Under the pieces are notes generated by a model that did no database searches, was not told where the DNA came from, and worked only from the letters and a program-made list of their open reading frames with translations. Positions 1 through 3,222 of a stretch of DNA of 32,414 nucleotides are shown in pieces. How positions within the stretch are numbered: the stretch's first letter is position 1; each line of letters starts with the position of its first letter. Source of the stretch: Caulobacter sp. (lineage in GTDB: Bacteria > Pseudomonadota > Alphaproteobacteria > Caulobacterales > Caulobacteraceae); NCBI GenBank assembly GCA_030652755.1, contig JAUSPV010000194.1:1-32414 (forward strand), written 5' to 3'. The position numbers were made by a program, and so were the translations under genes.

Positions 1-395
1 TCACGCCGGAGTTCCGCAACCGCCTGGACGCCGTGGTCGCCTTCAAGCCGCTGACGCAGGAGATCATCCGCCAGGTGGTGCAGAAGTTCGTCATCCAGCT
101 CGAAGCCCAGCTGGCCGACCGCAACGTCACCATCGAAACGACCGACGAGGCGGCCGACTGGCTGGCCAAGAACGGCTTCGACGAGCTCTATGGCGCCCGG
201 CCCCTGGCCCGGGTCATCCAGGAGCACATCAAGAAGCCGCTGGCCGACGACATCCTGTTCGGCAAGCTGGCCAAGGGCGGCCACGTCAAGGTCGTGCTCC
301 GCGACGGCAAGATCGCCTTCGATTTCGACATCGACGGCGCCGGCCCGCGCGAACCGGGCGCTCCGGAAATCGAGGAGCCCGCGCTCGCGGAATAG
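1..395 (+). CDS. clpA: ATP-dependent Clp protease ATP-binding subunit ClpA, C-terminal part (5' truncated by window edge)
   Basis: Frame open from nt 3: TPEFRNRLDAVVAFKPLTQEII...GFDELYGARPLARVIQEHIKKPLADDILFGKL, the typical Hsp100/ClpA D2-small domain C-terminus. Confidence 0.93.
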   Translation, partial: TPEFRNRLDAVVAFKPLTQEIIRQVVQKFVIQLEAQLADRNVTIETTDEAADWLAKNGFDELYGARPLARVIQEHIKKPLADDILFGKLAKGGHVKVVLRDGKIAFDFDIDGAGPREPGAPEIEEPALAE

Positions 396-2703: not shown

Positions 2704-3222
2704 ATGACGTCCTTCCCGTTCGATACGCTCGGCGCTTCGAAACAGCTTCGCGGAGCGGGCATGCCGGAAGGCATGGCCGAGGCGGTGGTGTCGGTGTTCC
2801 AGCACGCGGCCATGACGCCGGACTTCAGCCATCTGGCGACGAAGGCCGACCTCGACGTCGTCAAGGCGGAGATGGCGACGAAGGCCGATCTCGACGCCGT
2901 CAAAGCGGAGATGGCGACGAAGGCGGATCTCAAAGCCGTCCGGGCGGAGATGGCCACGAAAGCCGATCTCAACGCCGTCCGGGCGGACATGGCGACGAAG
3001 GCCGATCTCGACGCCGTCCGGGCGGAGATGGCGACGAAGGCGGACATTGCCGACATGGCCACCAAGGCGGATCTCTCCGAACTTCGCCTCGCGGCGAAGG
3101 CCGACCTGCTCGAGCTGGAGGTCCGGATCATGGAGCGAATGCGCCAGCAGGGCTGGGCGCTGATGGGCGGGATGACGGTGCTGCTGGCTGTATCGACGGC
3201 CATCGGCAGGCTCATCGGCTGA
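2704..3222 (+). CDS. Repeat-containing coiled-coil protein with C-terminal TM anchor (DUF1640/CCDC90-like head, MATKADL repeats)
   Basis: ORF 172 aa; N-terminal FDTLGASKQLRGAGMPEGMAEAVVSVF; tandem MATKADLDAVKAE units; C-terminal hydrophobic GWALMGGMTVLLAVSTAIGRLIG. Confidence 0.75.
   Translation: MTSFPFDTLGASKQLRGAGMPEGMAEAVVSVFQHAAMTPDFSHLATKADLDVVKAEMATKADLDAVKAEMATKADLKAVRAEMATKADLNAVRADMATKADLDAVRAEMATKADIADMATKADLSELRLAAKADLLELEVRIMERMRQQGWALMGGMTVLLAVSTAIGRLIG
2833..3120 (+). repeat. In-frame coding tandem repeat: five 39-bp units, then 27-bp and 33-bp units and a degenerate unit
   Basis: ATG/CTG-GCGACGAAGGCCGATCTC... repeat starts at 2833, 2872, 2911, 2950, 2989, 3028, 3055. Confidence 0.9.

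Follow-up and report, generated by a model that had tools for sequence, protein, structure and literature searches.

In the α/β coiled coils described in 2016, the β-layer motif is [aliphatic]-A-T-K-[polar]-[DE], and DUF1640 proteins carry this motif where their stalk begins (PMC4786415); in the solved structure 5APZ, the register abcdefg-bbb-efgabc was assigned to ITLMQANMATKDDLAR (PMC4786415). Among members of this family, MCUR1 is organized as a head, a β-layer neck, a stalk, and a transmembrane segment (PMC6801532, citing Adlakha et al. 2019). MCUR1 has been described as a scaffold, and the yeast proteins Put6/Put7 influence proline metabolism (PMC7519068). The locus described here is located in a 32.4-kb window, which represents an entire contig of a 3.5-Mb draft Caulobacter genome; an initial annotation had stated that motifs of the MATKxD type occur at β-layers, and the published motif, along with the explicit naming of DUF1640, agrees with that statement.

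Family membership and anatomy of the repeat protein

The protein encoded by the repeat gene is a Caulobacter membrane-anchored member of the MCUR1/CCDC90 (DUF1640) family. The Pfam CCDC90-like model PF07798 matched residues 6–144 with E = 3.8e-6 and 27.3 bits, which is below the curated cut-off of 33.5 and counts against the assignment, while a paralog in the same genome cleared this cut-off (38.2 bits); PF07798 was also found in 9/10 members of the family profile (best E = 4.3e-11). The family profile in turn matched the solved structures 5APZ (E = 2.4e-8), 6H9L (8.6e-5), 6H9M (CCDC90B; 1.5e-4), and 7O92 (2.1e-4); the match to 6H9M aligns with its head, and two helices were modeled for the corresponding part of the window protein. 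The comparison of hidden Markov models with DUF1640/CCDC90 that had been suggested initially thus supports this family assignment. Two other Pfam matches, ATP-grasp_5 and Med28, were dismissed as weak matches to repetitive helix, and an NCBIfam search returned nothing meaningful.

The start codon of the repeat gene is the ATG at 2704 and its stop codon ends at 3222, resulting in a product of 172 residues (Table 1). The gene had initially been placed at 2833–3222; however, position 2833 is an internal CTG preceded by 43 conserved head residues, so that the N-terminal head, which is the best-conserved portion among relatives, had been overlooked. The neck motif, LATKAD at residue 44, follows straight after this head, with a helix starting at residue 47 in both structure models discussed below. 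At the other end of the protein, the best 19-residue hydropathy window (1.69 at residue 153; maximum spanning residues 153–171) identifies a hydrophobic anchor that is conserved in the orthologs, as expected for the membrane-anchored stalk proposed earlier.

Table 1. Features of the repeat gene and of the preceding clpA gene, in window coordinates.
Feature	Position	Strand	Evidence
End of clpA, conserved upstream neighbor in Caulobacter	33–395	+	ClpB_D2-small E 3.5e-29; synteny
Whole gene: CCDC90/MCUR1-like (DUF1640) tail-anchored protein, 172 aa	2704–3222	+	ORF; PF07798 match below cut-off; roughly two dozen Caulobacter genomes with orthologs
N-terminal head, residues 1–43, two short helices	2704–2832	+	Single-chain model; family-profile alignment to 6H9M
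Putative neck β-layer triplet LAT, residues 44–46	2833–2841	+	Published motif; pre-helix break in both models; fixed spacing in 24 orthologs
Five 13-residue (39-bp) units, xATKADLxxVxAx	2833–3027	+	TRF; motif spacing
9-residue unit MATKADIAD (nonad)	3028–3054	+	Motif spacing; nonad type solved in 5APZ
11-residue unit MATKADLSELR	3055–3087	+	Motif spacing
Degenerate LAAKAD motif and last helix ahead of membrane	3088–3150	+	Sequence; L011 and L027 (sister orthologs) retain it
C-terminal membrane anchor, residues about 150–172	3151–3219	+	Hydropathy; kept in orthologs

The eight motif copies begin at residues 44, 57, 70, 83, 96, 109, 118, and 129 (window positions 2833, 2872, 2911, 2950, 2989, 3028, 3055, and 3088), and the gaps between successive motifs are therefore 13, 13, 13, 13, 13, 9, and 11 residues, confirming the order of 13-, 9-, and 11-residue units that had been read from the translation; the final motif, LAAKAD, departs from the consensus. 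TRF reported a 39-bp tandem array at 2834–3041 (5.3 copies, 89% matches). The 13-residue repeat is not due to chance, since 56 self-matches were observed at lag 13, whereas 5000 codon shuffles never gave more than 34 at any lag. The description of the 39-bp units as near-identical was too strong, as pairs of units share 30–36 of 39 bases and are similar only. Core positions 7 and 10 of the unit, as well as the ATK motif, are maintained across the window array.

Stalk turnover at a conserved Caulobacter locus

Relatives were retrieved by a scan that used a hand-made family consensus as the query. The repeat gene was detected in 20 of the 37 Caulobacter genomes examined. A location downstream of clpA was found in 24 Caulobacter genomes (including the window genome), with 36–642 bp between the end of clpA and the start of the repeat gene in all of these except the window genome; an opposite-strand HIT-domain gene is usually next after the clpA-linked repeat gene. 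In the window, a gene encoding a MASE1 hybrid histidine kinase (480–2576; 698 aa) separates clpA from the repeat gene.

Across species, the protein retains a conserved head and a conserved anchor, but the intervening stalk is rebuilt from 9-, 11-, and 13-residue units. The distance from the FDTL sequence of the head to the neck is 38 residues in 24/24 orthologs; the distance from the neck to the anchor, on the other hand, ranges from 38 to 145 residues across the same orthologs, and the variability in array length that had been anticipated is therefore lineage-specific when repeat numbers are compared between species. For example, two close relatives in which the neighboring aldo/keto reductase (AKR) is 96–97% identical, L042 and L136, carry quite different arrays, of 9-9-9-11 and of a single 13, respectively. 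Divergence at 4-fold sites was 0.12 from unit to unit, as compared to 0.19–0.21 for the AKR gene between species; the lower divergence of the units is consistent with an expansion around or after the species split.

The window genome also contains a second DUF1640 gene (L135:4578–5258, contig C134), which consists mostly of nonads (MATKSDIAN) and is flanked by genes that we take, from their sequences, to be argF and an Hsp33-like gene; linkage of this paralog to argF is also kept in L008, L009, L013, and L028. Three clpA-linked Caulobacter orthologs (L057, L016, and L017) show 6-residue spacings (LATKAD/MATKADLAN/MATKAE/TATKADLAN), a natural hexad spacing for which earlier work had found no example among coiled coils of this type (PMC4786415). 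Outside Caulobacter, a 13-residue unit was observed in a protein from a gammaproteobacterial MAG (L051), in which MATKADIAVLEAN is mixed with MATKADIAD 9-residue units. A phylum-wide search with the array alone identified no further long 13-residue array in 399 sampled genomes, and 0/112 pattern matches on viral contigs encode a relative. The phage search yielded only two matches to the repeat region, both weak and both in Moraxella phages (Mcat4 and Mcat7; KR093628 and KR093631), one of them annotated as a tail protein; the plasmid search yielded two weak matches.

Evidence for and against β-layers in the 13-residue units

In the repeat region, insertions of 2 or 6 residues interrupt a heptad pattern, as in α/β coiled coils, with A replacing the polar residue at position 5 of the motif. 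The solved 5APZ junction (ITLMQAN-MAT-KDD-LAR) and the window junction (LDAVKAE-MAT-KAD-LDA) have the same layout, so that the 13-residue unit would most likely consist of a β-layer triplet (M-A-T), the positions e-f-g (K-A-D), and a full heptad abcdefg whose a and d positions hold L and V, respectively. By this sequence argument, the 13-residue junctions would share the register of the first Tcar0761 (5APZ) β-layer, and the local register implied by the 13 = 7 + 6 arithmetic of the initial annotation thus has a counterpart in a solved structure.

Among 50 proteins (or frames) from related loci, inter-motif spacings were mainly 9 (n = 74), 11 (n = 43), and 13 (n = 16), with few at 6, 7, 16, 18, and larger values and zero cases at 8, 10, 12, 14, and 15. 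The opening residue of the next motif was large and hydrophobic for 16/16 13-residue units, 72/74 9-residue units, and 8/43 11-residue units; these counts include non-independent units, taken from related proteins, and a comparison of 13- and 11-residue units counted per protein gave a Fisher p of 0.0014. In the 9- and 13-residue units, the first β-layer position thus keeps its large hydrophobic residue, while most 11-residue units lack one there and look like plain hendecad helix. The 11-residue array of L115 showed a peak of hydrophobic periodicity at 3.67 residues per turn, the hendecad expectation, and the window 13-residue array and a nonad array showed almost no hydrophobic power at 3.4–3.9 residues per turn; as single arrays did not reach significance in a permutation control, periodicity serves as support only. 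The 13-residue units of L095 have core residues at positions 7 and 11, as compared to 7 and 10, and may differ from the window type.

A single-chain AF2 model of the window protein showed helices at residues 8–17 and 22–37, followed by a single helix at residues 47–171, with a mean pLDDT of 62.6 (50–62 in the array and about 71–73 at residues 11–30). No helix breaks were present at the MAT triplets of the 13-residue units in this low-confidence model, in contrast to a matched nonad control (L045), modeled with the same sequence set, in which short helices are split at most MAT triplets (pLDDT < 50); both models show a break at the neck, with the helix resuming at residue 47. This contrast between models counts against β-layers in the 13-residue units, and the unbroken helix is contrary, in a weak form, to the initial proposal of a β-layer at each MATK; its weight is tempered because single chains cannot make inter-chain layers and because both models have low confidence.

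On balance, we consider it reasonably probable that β-layers are present in the 13-residue units. A rather unlikely alternative is that a β-layer forms only at the neck LAT, and perhaps in the 9-residue unit, with an uninterrupted helix, strained or partly ordered, running through the 13-residue units at about 26 residues per 7 turns. Such a helix would agree with the window model, helical throughout while the nonad control breaks, and its 3.71 residues per turn fall inside the accessible range (PMC4786415); however, helix geometry suggests that identical 13-residue units would place L7/V10 in the core in every other unit only, and both the near absence of hydrophobic periodicity in the window array and the retention of M or L at the first β-layer position, as in nonads, argue against it. 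β-layers have also been described in the stalks of trimeric autotransporter adhesins (PMC4786415), which might suggest a surface-exposed trimeric fiber or adhesin, but hydropathy indicated no N-terminal signal, the sole strong hydrophobic stretch of the 172-aa ORF being C-terminal, an autotransporter barrel is absent, and a CCDC90B-type head is matrix-facing in mitochondrial MCUR1 (PMC6801532), rendering this explanation highly improbable.

Another explanation concerns the meaning of stalk length only and can be compatible with the β-layer structure favored here; stalk length may be neutral, changing by slippage of the GC-rich 39-bp tandem repeat, and every stalk longer than some minimum would then function equally well. 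While the range of 38–145 residues among close relatives and the detection of the gene in just 20/37 Caulobacter genomes would fit neutral length, the small number of unit-length classes and the retention of positions 7 and 10 and of ATK in the window array indicate a constraint on structure, not on length; we regard neutrality as possible but somewhat doubtful.

Proposed architecture and comparison with described systems

Taken together, these data lead us to favor, with moderate confidence, a cytoplasm-facing, C-tail-anchored, probably trimeric DUF1640/CCDC90 protein with β-layer 13-residue units and a spacer stalk. The C-terminal tail would be anchored probably in the inner membrane with the head facing the cytoplasm, into which the stalk probably projects, since the protein is without a signal peptide; this likely location had been missing from the initial annotation. 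A β-layer neck would couple the helical head to the stalk, which would end in a single membrane helix. We infer that the stalk grew in this species via tandem duplication of the 39-bp unit and that it may serve as a spacer that keeps the conserved head away from the inner membrane, its length shifting by whole units; at 1.5 Å per helical residue and zero for β residues, the lengths of the various stalks would come, as a very rough estimate, to between 5 and 16 nm.

The rule that insertions of 2 or 6 residues into coiled coils produce β-layers is here connected with differences that have arisen naturally at a single orthologous locus. Stalks of 6-, 9-, 11-, and 13-residue units can be compared there, which opens both this rule and the spacer idea to direct testing. 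Bacterial CCDC90-like proteins, which are kin of the mitochondrial calcium-uniporter regulator, also gain a conserved genomic context (clpA, and argF for the paralog) in which to search for function.

While the family and the motif were already known, the 13-residue stalk represents an unusual new variant. Members of PF07798 (MCUR1, CCDC90B, and Put6/Put7; 6H9M) share the FDT...L..G head, the β-layer neck, the coiled-coil stalk, and the C-terminal anchor; however, these relatives combine a single neck motif with a simple coiled coil, whereas the window stalk has up to seven extra motif units, mostly 13 residues apart. The archaeal head-neck-stalk-anchor protein Kcr-0859, which we presume to be the protein in 6H9L, shares a stalk motif of the ATKEDIEALR type but has an 11-residue spacing, with K or E preceding ATK in most units. 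In 7O92, a fragment from Candidatus Giovannonibacteria, the ATK motif likewise repeats at short spacing, but the spacing is 6 residues. Tcar0761 of Thermosinus carboxydivorans (5APZ) shares MATKxD, and its first β-layer comes after a complete heptad, the position occupied by each 13-residue junction; it differs in having nonads rather than 13-mers and a DUF3782-like coiled coil, and a CCDC90 head was not reported there. It is nearly an even possibility, which we put forward tentatively, that the 13-residue α/β coiled coil represents a further natural fiber type beside the nonad, used in Caulobacter as a length-adjustable membrane spacer whose length changes from one sister species to another against a constant head and anchor.
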